Shown in pieces: positions 4,150 to 38,398 of a stretch of 38,670 nt of DNA. The notes under the pieces were generated by a model. It made no database searches. It saw only the letters and a list, made by a program, of their open reading frames with translations, and was not told where the DNA came from. The DNA is from Bacilli bacterium (lineage in GTDB: Bacteria > Bacillota_I > Bacilli_A > ML615J-28 > CAG-698), in the NCBI GenBank assembly GCA_017450215.1, contig JAFSVH010000026.1:1-38670 (forward strand), in the 5' to 3' direction. The position numbers were made by a program, and so were the translations under genes. Within the stretch, counting starts at the first letter, position 1. Each line of letters begins with the position of its first letter.

Positions 4150-4165
4150 GAATTTGGTGAATTAT

Positions 4166-7075
4166 ATGAATAAATCATTTACGAATAAAATTGACAAAAA
4201 AGATGTTAATGAGGCTCTTCCAACATTAAGACAAGAATTTGATGCTTTATGTAATAAAGAATTGAAATTTGCTTTAATTGACGAAGTTAAAGCCTTTAAA
4301 GAAAAATGTGAAGCAAGTGGTAATACTGATTATGTTTATAAATCAGATATTTTGATTTCTGATATTTATCTAGATCATTCTAGTTATGAAGAACCACTAA
4401 AATTATTATTAGCTGATTTTAAGCAAATTGATTATGCAATTTATCCAAAGACTTATGTTGAAATAATAGAAAGAATATTATTCATCTATATTACTAAACA
4501 AAATTATCGATTAGCTTTGAAATATGCATCATTAAAAGAGAAATTCATTGATTATAATGATTTAGATCAAGTAAATCGATTATTATTAGAAAAATCTTAT
4601 ATTTATGCTGAACTTAATGAAACTGAAAAAGCAATTGATACGCTTAAGAAAATAATCGATAAGCCTACAATGGCTACTCTTCCTTATGCTTTATCTAATC
4701 TTACTAAATTATATATTGATAAAAAGAATATTATTCTTGCTGAAGAGATGCTTAATAAATGTTTAGAAAATACAGATGATGATGAAGGTAGAATTTATTG
4801 TGACTATTTACTTGCAAAAATCTGCATATTGAAAGAAAACAACAATGAAGCTGCAATCATCTTAAAGCAAATCTTTGAAAATGAAGATATTAATGCTATG
4901 ACTCTACCTATGGTAATTGATTATTTAGATTTACTATATGATCAAAATAAATACGATGAGATGGCTTTAGTAATATCTAAGATTGCTTTGTTTGTTAATG
5001 CTAGTGATAATCTATATTTACAAAAGCAATTTAGTAAAAGTAAGATTAAATACTTACTTGCTACAAAGACAATTAATCAATTACAAGCAACTATTGATGA
5101 ATATGAAAAAATAGATAAAAAGATAATTGATAATGAGAAGAAGATTGCTTTTGAAATTAGTGAACTAGATAAGATGGAGGTAATTAATGAAACTGTTGAT
5201 AATATTGTTACTAATCTAGATTCTTTAATTGCTGTCTTTAATAACAATATTAATTATGATTCTTTAAGAGATGTATTTATGACATTCTGTAAGAGCCTTC
5301 AAAATGCTATTATGTTTGATTCTGCATCTTTTATTATGATTGATAAACCAGTGAATAATGAATTATTCCCATCTCAAGAATTGAATTTATATTATTATAG
5401 AAATCAAAAATTATATGAGAAGAATTTATCTTTATCAATGCTTGATAATAGTATTGTTCAATATGTTATCAATCAAAATAAATCATTAGGCTTTGATTTA
5501 AAGAAGAATCGAATTGATTTAATTAATATGTTCTATAATAGACCATTTATTGATGATCAATTATATTATGTTTATGCAGTACCTTGCTCTTATCAAGGCT
5601 CAATCTTTGGTGTTTTGGTTTTTACATCTCAAAATAACAATTTAACAGACAAGAATGTCTGCACTTATTTTGATTTTGGTGCTAAGATTTTTGAATCTTC
5701 TTTAACAACTTTCTACACTAATGAGGTTTATAACATTACTCAAGAAATGTATGATAGAACAGTACTTACTAATAATATTGGTTTAGTTAGATATAATGAT
5801 GATGAAATGGTTTTAAGTGTTTCATTAATGAATCTACTTAAACAAAAGAGTAATTACATTAATAGAAGAACTTATCTATATTATATTTCACGTAATGATT
5901 ATGAAAGATATATAAGAATTAGTAATAATGATAATTATCGTATTTCATATAAATTGAATATTGGTAATTTATATGTTCCTGTAACTGAAAATATTGAAAC
6001 ATTTACCGATAAATCAGGAAATAAATTATTCAAATTTGGTACTATCAGCGTAGATCAAGGTAATATTAAGACTCTAATTGATGGTAAAGGCTTATTACTT
6101 CAAAAGCTAGATGAAATAAAGAATTATGTTAGCAATTTAGAATATAAATTTGACTTTTTAAGATTTAAGACTATTCCATCTGATTATGAATTAATCAGAC
6201 AAACATTCTTAACTACTCCATATTATTTAAGTGATTCTGATTGTGTTTTAGTCTTAGATAATGAAATGAAGGTTGAAGTATTATTAGAAAAATTAGCTGC
6301 TATATCTGATTCATATACAATAATCAGATATCCTCGTGATGTCGTTAATATTGATTCATTATTAGAAATATCACAAATCATGTTAGATAGTGATTCTAAA
6401 CTTTATAGTGATGAAAAATATAAAGATTATCTAAAACGTGAAACTGCTACAATGCTAACAAGCAAAGCAATTAATGATCAATCATATAAAGCTGATTTAG
6501 GTGTTATTAGATTTGAAAGCTATGTTGATGAAATATGGATTGAACCACTATTATTCTTTAATGGTGATAAGAATAATGTTAATAAATTTGTTATGGTTAA
6601 TAACAAAAATATTAGGAATATGCTTTCTTATGAAAACAAAATTAAATATGATATTAAATTATTCCAAACCGTTGTAGATAATGGTATTTCGGTTAATACT
6701 TTATTATTCTTAAATAGTAAAGCTATTTATAAGATTATTGAAAAGCTTGATAATAATAATTCTAAAACTAATTTAAATAATTTATATTTTGTTATTAATG
6801 ATAATGATTATAAAGATATTAATGCTTTAATCGAAAGAATTAATAATTATGCTAATGTAATAATTAGTAGTGATGTACTTAAATATATTTCTATTATGAA
6901 TTTTGAAGTAAAAAATATTAAAGGTATATATTTAAATAAAGGTATTGATATTGAAGAAAGAGAAAGAATAATGAGAATTGCATCAACATATAAATTAGAT
7001 ATTGTTAGTCCAAGAAAGTTGAATGACTGGTCTAAGAATATTTATGAAAGTGATTATGTTGATATTGTGAAGTAG
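4166..7075 (+). CDS. TPR-GAF protein with degenerate GGDEF- and EAL-like modules
   Basis: A 969-aa protein with no signal peptide or clear membrane segment, so probably cytosolic. Residues about 60-315 look like helical TPR-type repeats. About 345-510 resembles a GAF domain, with a FDSASFIMID strand and a later SIFGVLVFTS strand. About 535-630 is PAS-like. About 645-760 resembles the C-terminal half of a GGDEF domain (SLLEISQIMLDSDSKLYSDEK) but lacks a GG(D/E)EF signature. About 765-965 resembles an EAL fold (KNIKGIYLN, then RIMRIASTYKLDIVSPRKL) without ExLxR or DDFG. Catalysis of c-di-GMP synthesis or breakdown is therefore unlikely; a ligand-sensing or scaffold role is inferred. The ATG at 4166 follows GGTGA at 5-nt spacing; a TTG 12 nt upstream lacks this. 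Domain calls are from pattern resemblance only. Confidence 0.6.
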   Translation: MNKSFTNKIDKKDVNEALPTLRQEFDALCNKELKFALIDEVKAFKEKCEASGNTDYVYKSDILISDIYLDHSSYEEPLKLLLADFKQIDYAIYPKTYVEIIERILFIYITKQNYRLALKYASLKEKFIDYNDLDQVNRLLLEKSYIYAELNETEKAIDTLKKIIDKPTMATLPYALSNLTKLYIDKKNIILAEEMLNKCLENTDDDEGRIYCDYLLAKICILKENNNEAAIILKQIFENEDINAMTLPMVIDYLDLLYDQNKYDEMALVISKIALFVNASDNLYLQKQFSKSKIKYLLATKTINQLQATIDEYEKIDKKIIDNEKKIAFEISELDKMEVINETVDNIVTNLDSLIAVFNNNINYDSLRDVFMTFCKSLQNAIMFDSASFIMIDKPVNNELFPSQELNLYYYRNQKLYEKNLSLSMLDNSIVQYVINQNKSLGFDLKKNRIDLINMFYNRPFIDDQLYYVYAVPCSYQGSIFGVLVFTSQNNNLTDKNVCTYFDFGAKIFESSLTTFYTNEVYNITQEMYDRTVLTNNIGLVRYNDDEMVLSVSLMNLLKQKSNYINRRTYLYYISRNDYERYIRISNNDNYRISYKLNIGNLYVPVTENIETFTDKSGNKLFKFGTISVDQGNIKTLIDGKGLLLQKLDEIKNYVSNLEYKFDFLRFKTIPSDYELIRQTFLTTPYYLSDSDCVLVLDNEMKVEVLLEKLAAISDSYTIIRYPRDVVNIDSLLEISQIMLDSDSKLYSDEKYKDYLKRETATMLTSKAINDQSYKADLGVIRFESYVDEIWIEPLLFFNGDKNNVNKFVMVNNKNIRNMLSYENKIKYDIKLFQTVVDNGISVNTLLFLNSKAIYKIIEKLDNNNSKTNLNNLYFVINDNDYKDINALIERINNYANVIISSDVLKYISIMNFEVKNIKGIYLNKGIDIEERERIMRIASTYKLDIVSPRKLNDWSKNIYESDYVDIVK

Positions 7076-7082
7076 GTTAATT

Positions 7083-8060
7083 ATGAAAGTATTATTATTT
7101 ATACAAAGTTTATTCGTACCTGGATATATGGTAAGAAGAAAGAATATGAATGTATTCATTTCTTTTCTTCTTTTGATTGCTTTTTCGGTTGTGGTTGCCT
7201 TACCAATGATTAATTATTTCAGTAAAGATAGATATACAATAATGGAATCTAGCTTGAATTTAAAAGCATTTAATTATGTGATTGATGAAAATTCAACTGT
7301 GGGTATGATTACTGACGAAGAAAGAGCAACTTATAATATGGTTTATTATAGTGATATTAAGAAGCTTGGAATCATGGCTAATAAAAAGGGTCTTGCTTAT
7401 CAAGATGAATTAGTTAATGGTCAAGAATATGTATTAAAATCATATATTCCTATTTTAGATGAAGAAGGTACAATAACTAATTATGAAACATATTATATTC
7501 ATATTGTTGTAGATGATTATGATATTAATAGTGATGAATCTGCAACATATGATATTACTAATAATTTCTTGAAATTAAAAAGAGAACCAGATAATTCATT
7601 CCATCATCTTTTGATTGCTTTTTATAGTTCAGGTGCTTATTTTGCTTATAGTGATGAAGCAACTCAATTAGTCACTTTGACTTATGGTGATAATGAAATT
7701 TATTTATCTGAGGGAGAAGATGCTACTTATTTATCTCATAAGATAATTGATTTACTTTATAGAGTATATCAATATAAAGCAACACTCAGATCTTTCATCT
7801 TTGTTTTTGCTTTACCAATTCTATTTACTATCGTGTTCTCTTGGATTTTTGGTAGATTTGGTGCCTTAAAAGGCTTTAGAGAATATTTAGCTGTTGGTAC
7901 TATTGTATGTATGAATTGTACTATTGTTGGAACGATTCTTTCATTTATCAATATGCAATTGTGTAATTATGTATTCAATTATTTCTCATTTGCCTTTATT
8001 GCTTATTATTTAGTTACAATAATGATAATTAATAGAAGACATAGAATACATATGGATTAG
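7083..8060 (+). CDS. Membrane protein with large extracytoplasmic loop (DUF1189-like topology)
   Basis: A 325-aa protein of unknown function. Membrane segments are visible at about 23-45, 236-256, 268-289 and 296-315. A hydrophilic, Tyr/Asp-rich stretch of about 185 residues between the first two is probably outside. The N-terminus (SLFVPGYMVRRK) is basic and probably cytoplasmic. This layout resembles DUF1189 membrane proteins, but I cannot confirm membership. It starts 7 nt after the stop of the GGDEF/EAL-like gene and is probably co-transcribed and functionally tied to it. The ribosome binding site is weak. Confidence 0.75.
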   Translation: MKVLLFIQSLFVPGYMVRRKNMNVFISFLLLIAFSVVVALPMINYFSKDRYTIMESSLNLKAFNYVIDENSTVGMITDEERATYNMVYYSDIKKLGIMANKKGLAYQDELVNGQEYVLKSYIPILDEEGTITNYETYYIHIVVDDYDINSDESATYDITNNFLKLKREPDNSFHHLLIAFYSSGAYFAYSDEATQLVTLTYGDNEIYLSEGEDATYLSHKIIDLLYRVYQYKATLRSFIFVFALPILFTIVFSWIFGRFGALKGFREYLAVGTIVCMNCTIVGTILSFINMQLCNYVFNYFSFAFIAYYLVTIMIINRRHRIHMD

Positions 8061-9867: not shown

Positions 9868-11742
9868 ATGAATAAAAAAACTGTTAATATTCACATTTTT
9901 AATGTGTTTGTAATTTTAGTCTTATTTGGTCTTGCCCTAGCTTTAACATCTTGCTTTGGCGTTACTAAAAAAGGCTGCCAACATGAATTTGAAATATTAG
10001 ACGAGGTTCAAGCTGTAGATTGCGAACATCCTGGACATTCTCATCAAAAATGTACTAAATGTGGTTTAGAAAAGACTGTTAAGCTTGTTATTCCACATGA
10101 AGTAGATGATCCTGAAGATTATATTTCTATTCAATATTGTAAGAAATGTAATAAGAGTGTTAGACTTGAAAGCTTAGAAACTGATAGAGAATATTTCAAT
10201 TATCATTATTCTAGTTCAATGTTAAATGAAGCATTAGCAGCAATTGATGCAATGCATGCTGTATATGAAGAATCACTAACGAAAGAAAAGAGTGATCAAG
10301 AATATGCTGATACAATCAATGAATTATATGGAGATTTTGATCTTAAATTCACTGCTGTTATCAATCAAAATAGAGCAGCTTCTGTTCAATTTGATATGGA
10401 GAACACTAAAGCTAATGAAGATAAATATGATACATTAAATAAAGCAACTAATGAAATTCAAGAAAAATATCGTGAATTATTATATGATTTATTCTATAGT
10501 GATTTAAAAGAATTAGTATTCACTCCAGAAGATATTGAAGATTTAGAAGATGAAATTGAAACATTTAAGAATCCTAGAGTAAGAGAATTAAATGACTTAA
10601 TTGATGAAATGGAAAATGATCTTTATTACAATACTGATGAAGAAGATTTTAATGAAGGTTATGCAGAATTATTAGGCTATAGAAATGAACTTGCTCAAAT
10701 CTATGGTTATGAAACATTCTATGAATATGCTCATGAAAATTATTATGGTAGAAGCTATTCAGTTGATGATTTAAAGATCTTTAGAAGAAATGCAAGAGAA
10801 GTATTGGCTGATGTTTATGCTATTGAAACTTCACGTGGTAAATCTGGATTAAGTGATAATGTAACTTATAATTCAATTTATAGTTTATTCTACACACCTA
10901 TCTTCAATAATAAACAAACATTAGAACTTTATATGAAGTTTGCAAAGAAGATGACAACTGATAAATTTGATTATTTAGGTGAAGTTAATAAAGCATTTAA
11001 GGATGGTAGAATTTTCATCTCTGGTGAAAATGGAAATGAAAGAGCATATACAACTACAGTTGATGTAGATGGTGAAAACAAGAACATTATGTTCTTTGGT
11101 AATTTTGAATATTATGCTGCTCCATTCACTCTAGTTCATGAAAGTGGTCACTTTATGTTTGATGCTTACGCATATGATTTGTATAATGATTATGATTTAT
11201 TTGAAGTACAATCTCAAACTAATGAAATGTTCTTCTTAAGTACTCTTTCTCAACAATTAAAGACTGTATATAAATCAATTGAACATTATGTATGGTATTC
11301 TAGATTAGATACTGTTGTAACTACAACATTAGTAGATGAATTTGAATATATGCTTTATCATAATTATTCAGATTTAGATGATAAATTTAAAGATGGTATT
11401 AGTGCTGATGAATATGATGATTTATATGAAGCTGTTAAGAAATTATATGGCGTTCAAGAATTAGACAATTATTATTGGCATTATTATTGCACTCAATCAA
11501 GTGTTTATGAAATTGCTTATGCAATATCATTAATTCCAACACTTGCAAAATTAATCGATATTAAAGAAGATTTTGATAGTGCATATAAAGATTATGTAAA
11601 ATTACAAACATTCTATAAAGATAGAAAATTCAAAGATGAATTCAATTTTGTAAATGTATTAAAATATGCTAATTTTGCTAATCCATTTGAAGATGCTACT
11701 TATGATAAGATTAAAGCCTATATTGATGTATTTAGTAAATAA
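9868..11742 (+). CDS. M3-family (oligoendopeptidase-type) lipoprotein with N-terminal Cys-rich segment
   Basis: A 624-aa predicted lipoprotein: hydrophobic signal about 10-27 with lipobox LTSC (Cys29). Residues 37-94 form a Cys/His-rich module with CxH at 37 and 52, CTKC at 62-65 and CKKC at 91-94, probably metal-binding or disulphide-linked. The rest is a helical M3-like peptidase with the zinc motif HESGH at 424-428 (VHESGHFMFD) and a candidate third ligand Glu453 in QTNEMFF. It would cleave peptides outside the membrane, unlike cytosolic PepF. It sits between xseA and xseB. The GAGG ribosome binding site is 7 nt before the ATG. Peptidase assignment is strong; substrate is unknown. Confidence 0.85.
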   Translation: MNKKTVNIHIFNVFVILVLFGLALALTSCFGVTKKGCQHEFEILDEVQAVDCEHPGHSHQKCTKCGLEKTVKLVIPHEVDDPEDYISIQYCKKCNKSVRLESLETDREYFNYHYSSSMLNEALAAIDAMHAVYEESLTKEKSDQEYADTINELYGDFDLKFTAVINQNRAASVQFDMENTKANEDKYDTLNKATNEIQEKYRELLYDLFYSDLKELVFTPEDIEDLEDEIETFKNPRVRELNDLIDEMENDLYYNTDEEDFNEGYAELLGYRNELAQIYGYETFYEYAHENYYGRSYSVDDLKIFRRNAREVLADVYAIETSRGKSGLSDNVTYNSIYSLFYTPIFNNKQTLELYMKFAKKMTTDKFDYLGEVNKAFKDGRIFISGENGNERAYTTTVDVDGENKNIMFFGNFEYYAAPFTLVHESGHFMFDAYAYDLYNDYDLFEVQSQTNEMFFLSTLSQQLKTVYKSIEHYVWYSRLDTVVTTTLVDEFEYMLYHNYSDLDDKFKDGISADEYDDLYEAVKKLYGVQELDNYYWHYYCTQSSVYEIAYAISLIPTLAKLIDIKEDFDSAYKDYVKLQTFYKDRKFKDEFNFVNVLKYANFANPFEDATYDKIKAYIDVFSK

Positions 11743-23949: not shown

Positions 23950-25119
23950 ATGATTAATTATTTTAAAAATTTATTAATTAAATTTAAACAAGCTAAGACA
24001 TCAAAGAAGATTATTTTATGTATAATATTATTCTTTTATCTTGTTATCGTATTGAGTTGTGTAATTCCAATAAAATGTGATTATACATCTCCAGGAACGC
24101 TTAATAGAATTAATTCAGTTATTTCTATTAATGATGAAAACAATACACAAGCTATAAGAAATAATTTCTATACAGTTTCAGTTTTTTCTGGAACTGATAA
24201 CTTCTCGTTATTTGAATATTTACTTAGAAATTTAGATAAAAAACAAGAAGTTAAAAAATATGAAGCATCTGATCATCTATTCACTACAACTGAAGAAAAT
24301 AGAGCAGGTGAAGCTCAAAAGACTCAAAGCATTCAAGATTCAATTATTTGTGCTTACGAACTAGCTAAAGAAGATGGTTATGATGTTAATCTAGTAAAAG
24401 AATATGTCGGTATAATGATATGCTATATGCCACAAAATCATTATGGTACAGGACCTGAATCATTACAGATTAAAGATATTATTATCAAGATTGGTGATGA
24501 AGATATCACTTCACCATTAAAATTATATGAAGTATGTTCATATTATTTAGAAAATGATAGATTTAAAGATAGTAATATTCAATGTCCTAAGATATTGATT
24601 CGTAGAAGTGGTGAAACATTTGAACTTGATTCATGTAATACTATTTGTTTAGCACAACTTGCTAAATTCTATGAGGCTGCTATGAGTGCATGTGAGAGAT
24701 TAAATATTGTTAACACTTATTCCTATTTAACAAATTATATGTTTGAATATTATGATTTAAATGTTAATGAATCAACTCCTTCATTCAATGTTAATTCAGC
24801 TGTTTCAACTGGTCCATCAGGTGGTTTATGTCAAACATTATATGTTTACAATGCTTTAACAAATAATTCATTAATCAAAGAAAATGAACTTATCACAGCA
24901 ACTGGTACTATTACTTATGATGGTACAGTAGGACCAATTGGTTCTGTCGATAAAAAGGTTTATACAGTTGATATATATTTATCTAAATACATGTTTGTGC
25001 CTAGTTATGATTATAATGATGCAATGGAAGCATATAACCAAATCAAAAATCCTGATTTTGAAGTAGTAAGTGTAAGCAATGTTCGCGATGCTATAAACAC
25101 TTTAAAAGGAGGTAATTAA
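23950..25119 (+). CDS. Membrane-anchored PDZ/Lon-type serine protease (YlbL-like)
   Basis: A 389-aa protein with an N-terminal membrane anchor (about 20-41), an extracytoplasmic PDZ-like region (about 150-225, with LQIKDIIIKIGDEDI) and a C-terminal Lon S16 catalytic domain. Catalytic Ser290 lies in STGPSGGL, and the dyad Lys is probably Lys336 in GSVDKKV. This is the YlbL family of surface-exposed Lon-like proteases. In Bacillus YlbL has been linked to envelope stress and cell-division checkpoint control. AAGGA precedes the ATG. The next gene starts within its stop codon (TAATG). Confidence 0.88.
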   Translation: MINYFKNLLIKFKQAKTSKKIILCIILFFYLVIVLSCVIPIKCDYTSPGTLNRINSVISINDENNTQAIRNNFYTVSVFSGTDNFSLFEYLLRNLDKKQEVKKYEASDHLFTTTEENRAGEAQKTQSIQDSIICAYELAKEDGYDVNLVKEYVGIMICYMPQNHYGTGPESLQIKDIIIKIGDEDITSPLKLYEVCSYYLENDRFKDSNIQCPKILIRRSGETFELDSCNTICLAQLAKFYEAAMSACERLNIVNTYSYLTNYMFEYYDLNVNESTPSFNVNSAVSTGPSGGLCQTLYVYNALTNNSLIKENELITATGTITYDGTVGPIGSVDKKVYTVDIYLSKYMFVPSYDYNDAMEAYNQIKNPDFEVVSVSNVRDAINTLKGGN

Positions 25120-25598
25120 TGAAACCTCTAGGATATAAGAATGATAATTCTAACAATAATAATAATACAAATAATACTAATTCAAACGTTACAAATATTA
25201 GAAGAGAGACTTTTTGGTTAAAAGGTAAAAGAGAATATAAGAAATTTGGTGAATATAATTTCAAAAAGAGTACTTTTTGGAAAACTACTCTTGGTGGAAT
25301 ATTAGCAACTTTATTAGTTACTGCACCAGTTATATTATTAATGGTTGCTTTATATAAAGCATTCTATTACAAATTATTCTTTAGAATCTTTATGTATTTA
25401 CTAGCTTGGGGTTTAGTATTATTCTGTAACGGCTTAAGTAATTATTTCACAGTTCAAATGTCTAAAACCTATGTGACTGATGATGAGAAATTACAGAATA
25501 TGGATGCATTCGCAATCATGTTCTATAATTGCTTTAATATTGGATTTATGATTATTACTTTGTTAATCGTAATATTCGTTATGATGGTGACATTATGA
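25119..25598 (+). CDS. Unknown membrane protein with poly-Asn N-terminus
   Basis: A 159-aa protein I do not recognise. Residues 9-25 are almost all Asn/Thr/Ser, followed by a basic cytoplasmic region. Hydrophobic segments lie at about 57-79, 88-110 and 131-158. AGGAGG is 7 nt before the ATG, and the start overlaps the stop of the Lon-like gene. Its own TGA stop overlaps the next ATG. The tight coupling suggests a role with the protease or with lipoprotein maturation, which is inference. Confidence 0.7.
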   Translation: MKPLGYKNDNSNNNNNTNNTNSNVTNIRRETFWLKGKREYKKFGEYNFKKSTFWKTTLGGILATLLVTAPVILLMVALYKAFYYKLFFRIFMYLLAWGLVLFCNGLSNYFTVQMSKTYVTDDEKLQNMDAFAIMFYNCFNIGFMIITLLIVIFVMMVTL

Positions 25599-26251
25599 TA
25601 GATAAAATTAAAAGTTTTTTTAAGAAGTATTATGTAGCTTTAATCATCATCTTTGGTGCTATTATTGTTGATTATGGTACTAAAATATTGATTACTAATG
25701 TTTTAAATTACACTTTAAGTGGTAAAAAGGTTGTTTCTGTTGATGAAATAGAAGTAATAAAAGAATTCTTTTACATTTCATATGCTAGAAATACAGGTGC
25801 TGGTTGGAGTTTATTAAGCGATAAAACATCATTATTAATTGGTATTACTGTTATAGCACTAGGTATATTCGTTTTTATGATGAAAGAATTTGATATTAAA
25901 AAAAGATTCTTTTTCTCTTTCGGTTTATCATTAATGATTGGTGGTACAATTGGTAATTTTGGTGAAAGAATCTATCATGGTTTTGTTACTGACTTTTTGG
26001 ATTTCATTATTTTTGGCTATGATTATCCAGTATTTAATGTTGCTGATATTTGCTTAGTTGTTGGTACTATTTCAGTTTTAGTTTCTATTATTTTCACAAA
26101 AGAGAATGCATTTGAATCTAAGAAATCTCCATTAGATAATAATCATCATTCTGATGATTATCATTCGGAAGATAAATCTATAGATAAATCGATAGATAAA
26201 TCAAATGATGAAACAACCGACAATAATGAAAAAAAGAATGAGGCAAATTAA
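25595..26251 (+). CDS. lspA: Signal peptidase II-like protein 1 (atypical)
   Basis: Membrane aspartyl protease family that removes signal peptides from diacylglyceryl-modified prolipoproteins. The 218-aa product has four membrane segments. Conserved motifs are VDYGTK near residue 25, RNTGAGW (65-71), GGTIGNFGER (116-125), VTDF with Asp133, and FNVAD with Asp151; the last two match the catalytic dyad. Unusual points are Glu124 where nearly all LspA have Asp (GN..DR), a longer first extracytoplasmic loop (about 36-55), and a hydrophilic C-terminal tail of about 48 residues with SIDK repeats. GGTGA precedes the ATG. Probably functional, but divergent. Confidence 0.85.
   Translation: MIDKIKSFFKKYYVALIIIFGAIIVDYGTKILITNVLNYTLSGKKVVSVDEIEVIKEFFYISYARNTGAGWSLLSDKTSLLIGITVIALGIFVFMMKEFDIKKRFFFSFGLSLMIGGTIGNFGERIYHGFVTDFLDFIIFGYDYPVFNVADICLVVGTISVLVSIIFTKENAFESKKSPLDNNHHSDDYHSEDKSIDKSIDKSNDETTDNNEKKNEAN
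26171..26206 (+). repeat. 12-bp tandem repeat inside the first lspA gene
   Basis: GATAAATCTATA, GATAAATCGATA and GATAAATCAAAT follow each other without gaps. They encode the SIDK-type repeats of the acidic C-terminal tail. In-frame expansion of a 12-bp unit explains the tail's low complexity. Confidence 0.8.
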
Positions 26252-26706
26252 TGCAAGTTAATATTGCATTTATCATCATTTCCTCAATTATCCTAATTGA
26301 TCAGCTAACTAAATATTTTGCATATGTATATATTCGACCAAAAGCAAAAACAAAAAATAAAATATTTTATTTGAGCTATGTTGAAAACAGTGGGATGGCA
26401 ATGGGCAAATTAAGTGGTGCTTATATTTATTTTTATATTGTTACTATTATTTCTTTAATTGCTCTTGCATTTTATGCCAATTATATAGATTTTCAGAATA
26501 GATTAATATTTAGTATTGGTATTAGCATTTTAATGGGTGGTGCAATGGGTAATTTTCTTGACCGCGTCTTTAGAGGTTATGTTATAGATTTTATAACAGG
26601 TAAAATCTTTAAAAAGCATTTACCAGTATATAATATTAGTGATTTATGTATTATGATTGGTTTTATATTATTAATAATTGATATAATTGGAGTTTTGTTA
26701 TCATGA
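26251..26706 (+). CDS. lspA: Signal peptidase II-like protein 2
   Basis: Second prolipoprotein signal peptidase homologue, 151 aa, about the standard length. It has IDQLTK near residue 16, ENSGMAMG in place of the usual NTGAAFG segment (45-52), GGAMGNFLDR (96-105, with the common Asp104), VIDF with Asp113 and YNISD with Asp131. The dyad is thus intact. The ATG at 26251 overlaps the stop of the first copy, and its TGA overlaps the rluD start. Divergent residues around the catalytic cavity in each copy suggest different substrates rather than a recent duplication. Confidence 0.88.
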   Translation: MQVNIAFIIISSIILIDQLTKYFAYVYIRPKAKTKNKIFYLSYVENSGMAMGKLSGAYIYFYIVTIISLIALAFYANYIDFQNRLIFSIGISILMGGAMGNFLDRVFRGYVIDFITGKIFKKHLPVYNISDLCIMIGFILLIIDIIGVLLS

Positions 26707-27653
26707 ATAATGACTTAAATAAGATTAATGAATCTAATATTATATTGATATTTGAACAAGCTGAATTCGATTATGATGTAAGACTTGATAAATTTTTAGT
26801 ACTCAATTTTCCTGATTATTCAAGAAGTAAATTACAAGATCTTGTGAAGAATGGCTTTGTGTTTGTTAATAATAAGCAAGAGAAGAATAATTATATCTTG
26901 AAAGATGAAGATGAAATTGAGATTAATTTTCCATTAGTTGTAGCATCTCCAATCGAAAAAGAAGATATACCACTCAATATAGTCTATGAAGATAGTGATA
27001 TTATCGTTGTCAATAAACCATCAGGGATGGTTACACATCCAGCTGTTGGTAATAAGCATGGTACATTAGTCAATGCTTTACTTTATCATTGTAAAGATTT
27101 ATCAGGTATTAATGGTGAAATGAGAGCTGGTATTGTTCATAGATTAGATAAAGATACTAGTGGTTTAATTGTTGCGTGTAAGAATGATTTTGCTCATAAA
27201 AATTTAAGTGAACAATTTGCAAAAAAGATGGTTAATAAGATTTATCATTGTATTTGCTATGGTGTTATTGACCATAATATTGGTGTTATTAATGCACCAA
27301 TTGGAAGAAATCCTATCCTCCGTCAACAAATGGAAGTAATAGAAAACGGAAAAGAAGCGATAACTCATTTTAAGGTTATTGAAAGATTTAGAGACTTCAC
27401 TTATTTAGAAGTAAAATTAGAAACTGGAAGAACTCATCAAATCAGAGTTCACCTAGCTTATATTAATCACCCTGTTTTAGGTGACCCTGTCTATGGACCT
27501 AGAAAAGTGATTGGTAATACTGGTCAATTTTTGCATGCTAAGAAATTAGGATTCTATCATCCTAGAACTAATGAATATATGGAATTTGATTCTGATTTGC
27601 CTTTAGAATTTCAGGCAATGTTAGATGAATTAGGCGGGCATATGCTTGACTAA
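26703..27653 (+). CDS. rluD: Large-subunit rRNA pseudouridine synthase, RluD/RluA family
   Basis: Converts uridines to pseudouridine in 23S rRNA. The 316-aa product has an N-terminal S4 RNA-binding domain (about 26-80, RLDKFLVLNFPDYSRSKLQ) and the RluA-type catalytic motif HRLDKDTSGL with Asp149. It ends with ETGRTHQIRVHLAYINHPVLGDPVYG (parts cited). The start overlaps the upstream lspA stop (ATGA). lspA-rluD adjacency is conserved in Bacilli. An AT-only spacer follows. Confidence 0.95.
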   Translation: MNNDLNKINESNIILIFEQAEFDYDVRLDKFLVLNFPDYSRSKLQDLVKNGFVFVNNKQEKNNYILKDEDEIEINFPLVVASPIEKEDIPLNIVYEDSDIIVVNKPSGMVTHPAVGNKHGTLVNALLYHCKDLSGINGEMRAGIVHRLDKDTSGLIVACKNDFAHKNLSEQFAKKMVNKIYHCICYGVIDHNIGVINAPIGRNPILRQQMEVIENGKEAITHFKVIERFRDFTYLEVKLETGRTHQIRVHLAYINHPVLGDPVYGPRKVIGNTGQFLHAKKLGFYHPRTNEYMEFDSDLPLEFQAMLDELGGHMLD

Positions 27654-27751: not shown

Positions 27752-28831
27752 ATGTATGATCTCGATGGATCGGTTCCCCCTCTGATATCTGGAATCCGAT
27801 TAGTTATAAATAATAATTCAATTTGGCCCTATATATTACTTATTGGTATTTTGTTATTAGGTGCCTTCTTTTCAGGTGCTGAAACTGCTTATTCATCAGT
27901 TAATCGTTATCGATTAGATGTTGATAAAGATAATGGCAGTAAATCAGCTAAACTTGCTTTAAATATTTTAGATAATTTTGATAATTTAATTATCATTGTA
28001 TTAATTGGTACTAATTTAACTCATATTTTAATGTCAGTTATTGCAACAGTCCTAGCTACATCTTTATTAGGAGCATATGGATCTATTGTTAGTACTGCTA
28101 TAATTACTTTGATTGTATTTTTCTTTGGTGAGATGATACCTAAGAGTGTAGCTAAATATAATGCTAATTGGTATTGTAAAGTATCAAGCTATTTTCTAAA
28201 ATTTCTAACAATTATCCTTTGGCCAATTGCAAAAATATTTGAGCTTTTAGTAATGCTTGTAAGAAAGATATTTAAACAAGATGATGAAAACGATGAAGAA
28301 GCCTTCACAGAAGATGATTTCCAAGATGTGATTGAACAAATTGAAGAAGAGGGTGCAATTAGTGAAGATGAAAGTGATATTATTCAAAATGCAGTCGATT
28401 TTGGTGATATTAAAGTAAAAGAAATATTAACTAAAAAAGATAATATTATTGCTTTAGATATTTCTAACTGTAATCCTAAATTTTTAAATGAATTCTTGCT
28501 TGAAACTGAATATTCAAGAATACCAATTTATGATGGTTCAATTGATAATATCATTGGTATACTTCATGTTCGTACTTATTTAAGAGAATATTTTAAAAAT
28601 AATAATTTAAACGTAAGAAATGTCTTAAAGAAGCCTTATACAGTATCATCTCAAGAAACATTAGATGATATCTTTGAAGGCTTCAAAAGAAATAAAACTC
28701 ATATTGCTATTATTAAGAGCACTAGAGGTAAAACTTTAGGTATGGTTACAATGAAAGACGTTTTAGAAGAATTAGTTGGTGAAATTGATGAAGGTCAAGA
28801 AGCACTACACGATGAAGAGAGTGACAAATAA
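27752..28831 (+). CDS. CNNM/DUF21 membrane protein with CBS pair, copy 1
   Basis: A 359-aa integral membrane protein. The DUF21 (CNNM) membrane domain spans about 22-185, with FFSGAETAYSSVN and the FFFGEMIPKS motif. An acidic linker (EEAFTEDDFQDVIEQIEEEG) leads to two CBS modules (about 215-340). It ends shortly after CBS2 and lacks the CorC_HlyC C-terminal domain present in its neighbour. Family members take part in magnesium or cobalt homeostasis. AAGGAG lies 12-13 nt before the ATG, a long spacing. Directly coupled to copy 2 (TAATG). Confidence 0.88.
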   Translation: MYDLDGSVPPLISGIRLVINNNSIWPYILLIGILLLGAFFSGAETAYSSVNRYRLDVDKDNGSKSAKLALNILDNFDNLIIIVLIGTNLTHILMSVIATVLATSLLGAYGSIVSTAIITLIVFFFGEMIPKSVAKYNANWYCKVSSYFLKFLTIILWPIAKIFELLVMLVRKIFKQDDENDEEAFTEDDFQDVIEQIEEEGAISEDESDIIQNAVDFGDIKVKEILTKKDNIIALDISNCNPKFLNEFLLETEYSRIPIYDGSIDNIIGILHVRTYLREYFKNNNLNVRNVLKKPYTVSSQETLDDIFEGFKRNKTHIAIIKSTRGKTLGMVTMKDVLEELVGEIDEGQEALHDEESDK

Positions 28832-30090
28832 TGAGAATCGCTATTGTTATTTCCTTATTCGTACTAATTATTCTATCTGCTTTCTTTTCTGGTAGTGAAA
28901 TGGTTTATGCAAAAGTAAATCAAATCAAATTAAAGAAAGAAGCAGATAAAGGATCTCTAAATGCTAAAAAAGCTTTGGATTTAGCTTCTAATTATTCATC
29001 TTTTATTTCCACAATCCTTATTGGTAATAATTTAGTTAATATTGCTTCATCATCAATAGCAACTATTCTTTGTATAGATATATGGGGTGAAGAGGTTGGT
29101 TCAACTGTTGCAACAATTGCTCTAACTATAATTATTTTAATATTTGGTGAAATATTACCTAAAACTATTTTACCTAAATATAATTATAGTTTATCTAAAT
29201 TATTTGTACCTTTTATTAAATTTTTTAAGATTATTCTTTTCCCATTTGTTTGGGCTGTAACTAAAATTGTGTCATTCATTGAACCAATTTGGGTGCCAAA
29301 GGAAGAAGAGCCTACAGCAACTGATGAAGAATTAATTTCAATGGTTGAAGAAATAGAAGATGAAGGTTATATTGATGAAGATACATCAGATTTGATTATA
29401 TCTGCAATAGATTTTGGTGATACTGAAGTATTCGAAATAATGAAACCTCGTGTTGACGTTTTTGCTTTTAATATTAATGATAATATAAATGAGCTTATTC
29501 AAGATGAAAAGATATTCTATTATTCAAGAGTACCTGTTTATGAAGATACCATTGATGATATTATTGGTGTAGTAAACACTAAAGATATATTAAAAATGAT
29601 GCTTCAAAATAAAGAAATTGACATTAAGAGTCTACTTACAGAACCTCTTTATACTCATAAAACTAAACCAGTAAAGCAATTATTACGAGAATTTAAAGAA
29701 ACTCATACTCATATTGCTATTGTAATGGATGAATTTGGTGGTACTTTAGGTATTGTCACCATGGAAGACATTGTGGAAGAACTGGTAGGTGAAATCTGGG
29801 ATGAAACTGATACAGTTGAAGAAGATATTACTAAAAAAGGTGAAAACAGCTATATCGTAAATGGAGATATGAATATTTATGATATGTTTGATATGTTCGA
29901 ATATGATTATAAAGATTTTGATTCAGAATATGAAACTGTTGGTGGATGGTGTACTGAAGTATTAAACAAATTCCCTGAAGTTAATGATGAATTTACTTAT
30001 GATATCTTTAAAGTTACTATTCTTGAAATGGATGATGTAAGAGTTGAAAAAGCAAAAGTTGAAATTGTAAAGAAAGATGAAGAAGATTAA
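28831..30090 (+). CDS. CNNM/HlyC-CorC family membrane protein, copy 2
   Basis: A 419-aa paralogue of the preceding gene. Its DUF21 domain has FFSGSEMVYAKVN and IFGEILPKT. CBS modules occupy about 195-325, with the typical HIAIVMDEFGGTLGIVTMED. A C-terminal CorC_HlyC domain (about 335-415, ENSYIVNGDMNIYDM) completes the protein. Probable role in Mg2+/divalent cation export or regulation, with nucleotide sensing by the CBS pair. The ATG overlaps the stop of copy 1, so the two are probably made in equal amounts and may form heterodimers. Confidence 0.92.
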   Translation: MRIAIVISLFVLIILSAFFSGSEMVYAKVNQIKLKKEADKGSLNAKKALDLASNYSSFISTILIGNNLVNIASSSIATILCIDIWGEEVGSTVATIALTIIILIFGEILPKTILPKYNYSLSKLFVPFIKFFKIILFPFVWAVTKIVSFIEPIWVPKEEEPTATDEELISMVEEIEDEGYIDEDTSDLIISAIDFGDTEVFEIMKPRVDVFAFNINDNINELIQDEKIFYYSRVPVYEDTIDDIIGVVNTKDILKMMLQNKEIDIKSLLTEPLYTHKTKPVKQLLREFKETHTHIAIVMDEFGGTLGIVTMEDIVEELVGEIWDETDTVEEDITKKGENSYIVNGDMNIYDMFDMFEYDYKDFDSEYETVGGWCTEVLNKFPEVNDEFTYDIFKVTILEMDDVRVEKAKVEIVKKDEED

Positions 30091-36004: not shown

Positions 36005-38398
36005 ATGAAAATTAACGTTAGTTTTAAATATTTTTTATTGATCTTTTTCCTCTGCTTTTTATCAATAATATTAATAGGCTGTGAAGATATAATCATTGAT
36101 GATGAGACAATAATAAATATCAGCTATGAAAAAGATACAATTAGAGTTGGTGAAGTAATGGAAATGTCATATTCATCAAATATTGAAGGGGACTTTAAAT
36201 GGTCTGTAGATGATAATAATGTAGCAAAAATTGATTCTAATGGCTTTTTGACCGGTTTAGATTTTGGTGAAGTATTAGTTACTATTACTTCAGTAGAGCA
36301 ACCTGAGCTTTCAAAATCAGTATCAATTCTTGTTCTTGATGGAGTTGTAACTAATGTAAAACCTGTTGGTCTTACCTATGGTAGTGTCGGTGATACTTTA
36401 AAATTAAGCTTTAATTTTGAACCAAAAGAAGTAAAATCACCTTATTTTTTAGAATCATTAACTCCAGATATTGTAACTGTTAATAAGAATAATACTTTAA
36501 CATTAAATAAGATTGGTAATGGAAAAATCAAAATCATAATCAATGATGATGGTGGTTATGAGCAAATTATTGATATTGGCTGTTATGATTTTACTAAAAT
36601 GCTAGTAGATCCATCTTTATCATTAGAACATAAATCTGGTGATGAAATTAAAGTAGATGATGTTACTTATTATTATGGTTTTACTTGTGTTGATACAATT
36701 GCAAAAGCAGCAAGTCTAATCACTGATAACAGTGTTATCACTGTTAAAGGTGGAGAATATTCAGACTTTTCAACAATCAAACACAACAATGTCACATTAA
36801 CTGGTACCAATAATCCTGTTGTGAAAAACAAGATAATTCTAACATCAAAAACTTCAAATGTAACAGTTGAAGGTTTTACATTTGAAGGTGATAATGCAAT
36901 ATTAATGTATGGAGAAAACAATAATATATTAATTCAAAATAATATATTCCAAAATAATAATGTTGCTTGCTCTTGGAATAAATTTATTGCTGATGGAATG
37001 ATTAGAATTTATTCATCAAAGATTACTTGTAATAATATTAGTATTACAAATAATATTTTTAAAGATATAAGCATTCCAGCAATTAATCTATCTTATATTA
37101 ATAATTTTAAAATCACTAATAATACATTTAGTAATATTTTAACTGATTGTATAAGAATAAATGAAGAAGAACCTACTTCAAGTTGTCAATGGCTAATCAA
37201 AGATAATAAATTTGATAATGTATATAATGCTATCTATGCAAGAGAATTTGCTTCATCATTTATCTCTTATGATACAATCATATCTGTATTTGATAATGAA
37301 TTTAAGAATATTAATAATTATCCAATTGAATTAACTGGTTATAATTATGGAACTGTATGTTTAGATGTAAAATATAATGATTTTGTTAATTGTGAAAAGC
37401 AAATATATATTGATAATGATGCAAAAACTTCAGATGGTAATCAAACTGAAAATCATCTTTATTCATCAATAATATTAAATAATTTCACTATTAACAATCA
37501 AAATGACATTTTAATAACATCAAATCCAGAACTTGGAACTGTTGATTTCTCAGTTAATTATTATGGTTCTTTAACAAAAGAAAATGTAAAGGCTAGATGT
37601 AGTAAGAATGTATTTGTTGGTACTGCTTCACAAAACAAGATTAATGAAGAAGAAGGTAATAAGATTTATTGCAAGAATGCATTATTTGTTGATGAAGGAA
37701 CATCAATAATTTGTGCAAATGCAACAAATTATACATCAACTAATTCTGAAATTATTGAAATTAGTAAAGATGGTATTATTACTCCTAAAAAAGAAGGACA
37801 AGCATCTATTAACATTTATAATAATAGTACATTATTAGCAACTCATAATTTTACAGTTTATGAAACATTACAAGTTGATTATGCTACTAAATTATTAGAA
37901 ATTGCTATTAGCCAAGAAGGCTATGTTGAAGGAAATAATAATTATACTAAATATGGTGTATGGTATAGTGAGCAAGTTCACGATGGTTCATTTGCTTATG
38001 GTGCATGGTGTGCTATGTTTGTAAGCTGGTGTGCTAATGAAGCTAATATTCCTAGATCTATAATTCCACTTTATGCTCTTTGCTCAGCAGGTAAACAATG
38101 GTTTGAATCAAGAGGTTTATTCCAATATAAAGAGAATTATCGTCCTAAAGCAGGAGATATTATTTTCTTCTTGTCAGCTGGTGCAGGTCACACTGGAATT
38201 GTAATATCTTGTGATGGAAATACTGTATATACAATTGAAGGAAATACAAGCAATATGTGTGCTAAAAGATCTTACAATTGGAACTATAAAACAATTACTG
38301 GTTATGGTACTCCTAATTATCCTAAATATGAGGGAACTAACGTAGTAACATTTGATGTAAGTAGTGCAACTGATGGATCTAATGCAAGCACAAGATAA
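36005..38398 (+). CDS. Lipoprotein with Ig-like, beta-helix and CHAP domains
   Basis: A 797-aa predicted surface lipoprotein: signal about 8-24 with lipobox LIGC (Cys26). Domains in order: BIG2-type Ig-like (about 36-112, VGEVMEMSYSS, GLDFGEVLVTI); a second degenerate beta region (about 115-195); a right-handed beta-helix with Asn-ladder repeats (about 240-520, many NN.I..N.F motifs); another short Ig-like unit (about 560-620); and a C-terminal CHAP/amidase domain (about 624-775). CHAP active-site residues Cys669 (GAWCAMFVSWC), His729 (GAGHTG) and Glu745 (TIEGN) are present, so it probably cleaves peptidoglycan peptides. It starts 2 nt after the trxA stop with no clear ribosome binding site, suggesting translational coupling. 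The combination is unusual. Confidence 0.85.
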   Translation: MKINVSFKYFLLIFFLCFLSIILIGCEDIIIDDETIINISYEKDTIRVGEVMEMSYSSNIEGDFKWSVDDNNVAKIDSNGFLTGLDFGEVLVTITSVEQPELSKSVSILVLDGVVTNVKPVGLTYGSVGDTLKLSFNFEPKEVKSPYFLESLTPDIVTVNKNNTLTLNKIGNGKIKIIINDDGGYEQIIDIGCYDFTKMLVDPSLSLEHKSGDEIKVDDVTYYYGFTCVDTIAKAASLITDNSVITVKGGEYSDFSTIKHNNVTLTGTNNPVVKNKIILTSKTSNVTVEGFTFEGDNAILMYGENNNILIQNNIFQNNNVACSWNKFIADGMIRIYSSKITCNNISITNNIFKDISIPAINLSYINNFKITNNTFSNILTDCIRINEEEPTSSCQWLIKDNKFDNVYNAIYAREFASSFISYDTIISVFDNEFKNINNYPIELTGYNYGTVCLDVKYNDFVNCEKQIYIDNDAKTSDGNQTENHLYSSIILNNFTINNQNDILITSNPELGTVDFSVNYYGSLTKENVKARCSKNVFVGTASQNKINEEEGNKIYCKNALFVDEGTSIICANATNYTSTNSEIIEISKDGIITPKKEGQASINIYNNSTLLATHNFTVYETLQVDYATKLLEIAISQEGYVEGNNNYTKYGVWYSEQVHDGSFAYGAWCAMFVSWCANEANIPRSIIPLYALCSAGKQWFESRGLFQYKENYRPKAGDIIFFLSAGAGHTGIVISCDGNTVYTIEGNTSNMCAKRSYNWNYKTITGYGTPNYPKYEGTNVVTFDVSSATDGSNASTR

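Follow-up and report, generated by a model that had tools for sequence, protein, structure and literature searches.

In many bacteria the signal peptidase II LspA is essential or important, and it represents a drug target thought hard to mutate. Tandem lspA genes have been described in Myxococcus xanthus, in which lspA1 and lspA2 lie side by side in one operon with lgt and have been proposed to have a housekeeping function (Xiao and Wall 2014, via PMC8689077, a source available in part), and the accessible portions of the same source report all four M. xanthus LspA copies to be active in E. coli lacking lpp (PMC8689077). At the level of the enzyme, the available sections on S. aureus LspA identify Asp118 and Asp136 as the catalytic pair, list 14 highly conserved residues, which we used as residue reference, and describe crystal structures in which the loop residue Trp57 holds both globomycin and myxovirescin (PMC6952399).

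The window, i.e., the whole stretch of 38,670 nucleotides analyzed here, is contig C103 of a genome of 2.05 Mb in 141 contigs. From position 25119 to 27653 its forward strand carries an unbroken series of overlapping genes: a small membrane-protein gene (25119–25598, 159 aa) adjoining lspA copy 1 on its 5′ side, lspA copy 1 (25595–26251, 218 aa), lspA copy 2 (26251–26706, 151 aa), which encodes a divergent signal peptidase II paralogue, and an rluD-type 23S rRNA pseudouridine synthase gene (26703–27653), the usual 3′ neighbor of lspA. The initial annotation had described two tandem overlapping lspA genes, and their coordinates proved exact: the copies have one base in common (TAATG), and overlaps of four bases (ATGA) join the membrane-protein gene to copy 1 and copy 2 to rluD. 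Since the genes overlap, they would probably be read from one message with coupled translation, so that both enzymes are made together. Against the Pfam cut-off of 25 for Peptidase_A8, copies 1 and 2 scored 105.9 and 107.0 bits, and against the NCBIfam lspA cut-off of 73.95 they scored 101 and 76.3 bits, the latter barely over the threshold. A search of the whole genome returned exactly these two LspA matches and no third. Lgt, the enzyme producing the substrate of LspA, is encoded by a single gene located on contig C58 and not in the lspA operon.

The 159-aa membrane protein, which has no Pfam or NCBIfam family match, may be considered a candidate partner of lspA. On its 5′ side lies a gene for a SepM-like PDZ/Lon-type (S16) membrane protease (23950–25119), and the order protease, membrane protein, lspA also occurs in at least three relatives (L003, L028, L141). 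Just 3′ of the overlapping series, adjacent genes for CNNM/CorC-type membrane proteins of 359 and 419 aa (27752–30090) form another tandem paralogue pair, and elsewhere in the window two large genes (4154–8060; 973 and 325 aa) are without a Pfam match at E 1e-5. Lipobox-like starts (LTSC, LIGC) were recognized in two other window genes, at 9868–11742 and 36005–38398, the latter encoding a CHAP domain and a bacterial Ig-like domain; both products are likely lipoproteins, and possible LspA substrates therefore exist in the window.

The two copies are divergent, as had been proposed, with 48 of 153 aligned residues identical (~31%) and a BLASTP identity of 35% over 110 residues. Their third codon positions match at a frequency of 0.46, vs. 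0.39 expected from composition, and blastn returned short and weak matches only (best E 7e-5 over 60 bases). These values exclude a very recent duplication, the outcome named beforehand as a refutation.

The catalytic Asp pair is intact in both copies, at D133/D151 in copy 1 and D113/D131 in copy 2, in agreement with the initial annotation. Copy 1 has 13 of the 14 residues conserved in the S. aureus enzyme, the change being Asp109 to Glu (Glu124), by which the GN..DR motif reads GNFGER. In the aligned set of 142 rows, of which the 140 comparison rows were gathered by similarity and non-randomly, so that all residue frequencies given here apply to that set only, Asp occupies this site in 138 rows and copy 1 is the sole Glu; the other exceptions are Cys in L109 and L111, which are second-site or sole lspA genes of other families, and Asn in L042, all three with the catalytic pair intact. 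Mutagenesis in B. subtilis by Tjalsma in 1999 reportedly marked the GN..DR Asp as important. The substitution had been singled out as a departure at a conserved site, which it is, but the Asp in question falls outside the catalytic pair as given in the available text on the S. aureus enzyme (PMC6952399). Copy 2 has 12 of the 14 residues, with Phe132 changed to Tyr (Tyr127) and Ala135 to Ser (Ser130), and carries Met51 at the position of S. aureus Trp57. Its NSGMAMG loop is indeed as unusual as first noticed, Met being found at the fourth place in 4 of the 140 other rows and at the sixth in none of them, and a further change that had been missed is YNISD for FNxAD, with Ser in 2 and Tyr in 1 of the 142 rows, copy 2 counted.

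The acidic repeat tail attributed to copy 1 is present and of simple-sequence nature: this hydrophilic, repeat-bearing C-terminal segment spans approximately residues 170–218 (26102–26248) and is modeled with low confidence. C-terminal tails measure 12–38 residues in 22 family rows, 10–50 in 12 other rows of the order and 58 in copy 1, and, by comparison with enzymes of solved structure, the tail of copy 1 would face the cytoplasm. In the AlphaFold models each copy has four membrane helices and two strands of the cradle, with a mean pLDDT of 91.1 for copy 2 and 82.1 for copy 1, whose tail is poorly defined. Each model matched five PDB chains at E ≤ 0.001, all of them LspA (6ryp, 6ryo, and three chains of 5dir), and both copies are accordingly predicted to keep the LspA fold of four membrane helices and a beta-cradle.

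Over 15 near-invariant columns, copies 1 and 2 each break one, at different columns, and keep 14; among the 140 other rows, 128 break none of these columns and 12 break one. At variable columns the majority residue is carried by copy 1 in 54 of 131 cases and by copy 2 in 48 of 131 (binomial P 4e-5 and 8e-6, rough values as the columns were picked from the same family). Since the near-invariant columns are kept despite the change at the variable ones, neither copy looks like a decaying gene, which argues against decay.

Within the order sample, 35 of 43 genomes had an LspA match, two in the window genome and exactly one in each of the 34 others, while the eight genomes with no match are mostly incomplete assemblies. 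Matches were found in 365 of the 395 genomes of the class sample, 19 of which, the window genome included, had two or more; a second sample, requested by phylum but all belonging to the same class, gave matches in 376 of 392 genomes and one more multi-copy genome (G523). In several multi-copy genomes of the class the second or third lspA is distant or on another contig, in one (G123) a broken lspA gene accounts for the two matches, and gene positions in all 19 other multi-copy genomes revealed no adjacent pair of complete lspA genes. Genomes of the class with additional lspA genes are not rare, and the overlapping pair, sought in related genomes as the initial annotation had recommended, was seen once, in the window genome alone. 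As a separate observation, the second lspA genes of family f8 (genomes G060, G071, G082, G091, G048, G115; rows L115, L116, L119, L121–L123) group in a long-branched clade of their own (99% SH-aLRT); their loop reads NxGAFLG, four members have GGxAN for GGxGN, and together they constitute a distinct group of unlinked LspA paralogues.

A homologue of the small membrane protein is encoded directly 5′ of lspA in all 22 other lspA-carrying genomes of the family, and in a few sister-family genomes. Directly 3′ of lspA, rluD was found in all 21 other family loci whose sequence extends far enough: a script recognized it in 18 of the 22 loci, visual inspection added three that exceeded the distance limit of the script, and the remaining locus offers just 110 bases of sequence. 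Given this conserved order of membrane protein, lspA and rluD, copy 2 is an additional gene in a slot that is old and conserved. No LspA match at E ≤ 0.001 was obtained in G001, the only other genome of the genus (84% complete), whose rluD contig stops a few bases upstream of rluD and in which the upstream membrane-protein gene is also absent; the region is accordingly missing from that assembly. A weak match in G001 (E 0.008) was judged by eye to be an unrelated small membrane protein with no LspA motifs and was discarded.

The phylogeny proposed for both copies was inferred with a quick tree of 142 rows and a careful tree of 64 rows hand-chosen among them. The duplicates L002 and L125, L112 (from a TGA-reading genome) and L117 (broken frame) were left out beforehand, and three tree rows are identical to others, the same contigs being present in two collections. 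Copy 1 paired with the family member G011 in the careful tree (support 90/86, bootstrap not settled) and fell among family rows in the larger one too, giving moderate support to copy 1 as the family's own inherited lspA. Copy 2, with the longest end branch (2.18), was placed by neither tree. In the careful tree, the rows at the shortest path from copy 2 belong to the family, and its best match outside its own genome, among the 395 class genomes, is an lspA of the same family (36% identity); both observations lean towards a duplication that took place within the family. Averaged over 20 family relatives, the identity of copy 1 was 0.350 and that of copy 2 was 0.346, lower than the own mean of every relative (0.386–0.543), while RluD was within the relatives' range (0.567 vs. 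0.547–0.652). Both lspA copies have changed more than the single-copy genes of the relatives, as expected after duplication. The neighboring membrane protein is also just under its range (0.309 vs. 0.313–0.424), and part of the fast change may therefore be local or lineage-wide.

We consider it rather probable that the pair derives from an old, lineage-specific tandem duplication of lspA in a conserved operon, with both copies active and a partial division of labor between them. Copy 1 would be the inherited lspA of the operon formed by the small membrane-protein gene, lspA and rluD, and copy 2 would have arisen next to it, in-place duplication being the simplest route, and then diverged fast. 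The topology tests are compatible with more than one history, as none of three groupings was rejected (AU test, p 0.477, 0.313, and 0.277): a constraint joining the two copies could not be rejected but gained no support either (p-AU 0.477), and a topology that unites copy 1 with the family and leaves copy 2 outside was likewise not rejected (p-AU 0.277). The latter result and the failure of the trees to place copy 2 would suit its acquisition by horizontal transfer, landing between lspA and rluD, as would a codon usage that is the most atypical of the 30 window genes, barely so (−0.870, the next being −0.854), and that leans against duplication within the family. We nonetheless regard transfer as a tentative and minor possibility, considering that the best match among the class genomes is the same-family lspA mentioned above, that GC and GC3 of copy 2 are ordinary for the window, and that an insertion preserving the start/stop overlaps on both sides is less simple than a tandem duplication. 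Nor did mobile elements offer a closer source: plasmids (605 records, all <60% identity) and phages (11 records) carry ordinary, distant lspA genes only, the best match to copy 2 reaching 33% in plasmids and at most 37% in phages, and a mobile origin was rejected. An assembly artefact, joining the lspA genes of two organisms in a metagenome-type contig, might be suspected from a genome in 141 contigs and a copy 2 with no near relative; it is extremely improbable in view of exact frame overlaps at three successive junctions between the usual family neighbors on both sides, and a chimaera is not expected to yield a TAATG junction.

Regarding function, both copies would act as membrane aspartyl proteases removing the signal peptide from lipidated prolipoproteins, most likely with substrates that are common or partly divided. 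With the work divided, constraint on the copies may have eased at different conserved sites, at the GN..DR Asp in copy 1 and, in copy 2, in the loop that covers the substrate and in the FNxAD motif, and the most likely outcome would be a partial division of labor over lipoprotein substrates, the roles being divided or relaxed. An unlikely alternative is that one copy, most plausibly copy 1 with its lone Glu in 142 rows, is catalytically impaired and persists as a relic or in a regulatory or scaffold role while the other does the processing; the Arg adjacent to this site, Arg110, is essential in the S. aureus enzyme according to the available text, its change to Ala leaving 0% activity (PMC6952399). 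The same text reports 50% activity retained with Lys at Arg110 (PMC6952399), the change from Asp to Glu keeps the charge, the Cys and Asn rows indicate that the site is not fully fixed, and copy 1, well over the lspA cut-off, keeps both catalytic Asp and all but one of the reference residues. It is quite doubtful that the copies are instead mutually dependent, each having lost a different active-site feature, with lipoprotein processing divided or performed as a pair; the lineage would then need two enzymes where other bacteria need one, and copy 2, its covering loop being altered, would cleave a distinct set of lipoprotein signal peptides. The initial annotation had also pointed to resistance to an LspA inhibitor, for which no positive support emerged, and a second copy guarding against a compound of the globomycin or myxovirescin type, through target change or dosage, is very unlikely. 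The sole fitting hint in the sequence is the Met of copy 2 in place of Trp57, the residue gripping both antibiotics. From partly available sources, inhibitor producers have extra lspA genes (PMC9943842, PMC8689077), and E. coli becomes resistant to a globomycin analogue once LspA rises 1.5–2 fold (PMC7482066). However, the Trp57 site is Phe in 9 of 22 family rows and therefore drifts without any inhibitor, and, in the accessible part of the S. aureus study, changing conserved residues of LspA lowered the globomycin IC50 rather than raising it, i.e., the mutants were more sensitive (PMC6952399). The neighbors are housekeeping genes, and neither an antibiotic-synthesis gene nor a synthesis cluster was found among the scanned window proteins.

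The duplicated locus that we favor can be set against the known lspA pairs. Our search of the literature on lspA paralogues and tandem lspA retrieved the M. xanthus and Streptomyces precedents and, among the papers listed, no publication on such a pair beside rluD. Like S. aureus LspA (6RYO/6RYP) and P. aeruginosa LspA (5DIR), the two products have the modeled fold, the catalytic Asp pair and most of the conserved residues (13 or 12 of 14), whereas they differ from the S. aureus enzyme by Asp109 to Glu in copy 1 and by Phe132 to Tyr, Ala135 to Ser and Trp57 to Met in copy 2. A pair departing at different conserved sites would reveal which LspA sites tolerate change, and would show whether two signal peptidases II can divide substrate choice; the find is nevertheless a modest curiosity, as tandem lspA genes are already known and copy 2 was seen in one genome. 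An extra divergent lspA beside the housekeeping one recalls lspA3/lspA4 of M. xanthus and globF of Streptomyces, but these sit in antibiotic clusters, as described in the available parts of the sources (PMC9943842, PMC8689077), and the window pair, whose scanned neighbors in the window are of housekeeping types, lies outside any inhibitor gene cluster there, the hallmark of a self-resistance lspA. M. xanthus has two more lspA genes, lspA3 and lspA4, in an antibiotic cluster (PMC8689077, in part), and no equivalent was seen here. The closest likeness is to M. xanthus lspA1-lspA2, as the window pair is also adjacent in one predicted operon; unlike that pair, which shares its operon with lgt, it is flanked by the small membrane-protein gene and rluD, with lgt elsewhere. 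Compared with the tandem lspA genes already known, the window pair represents a modest extension, being more divergent and located in another phylum and another operon.
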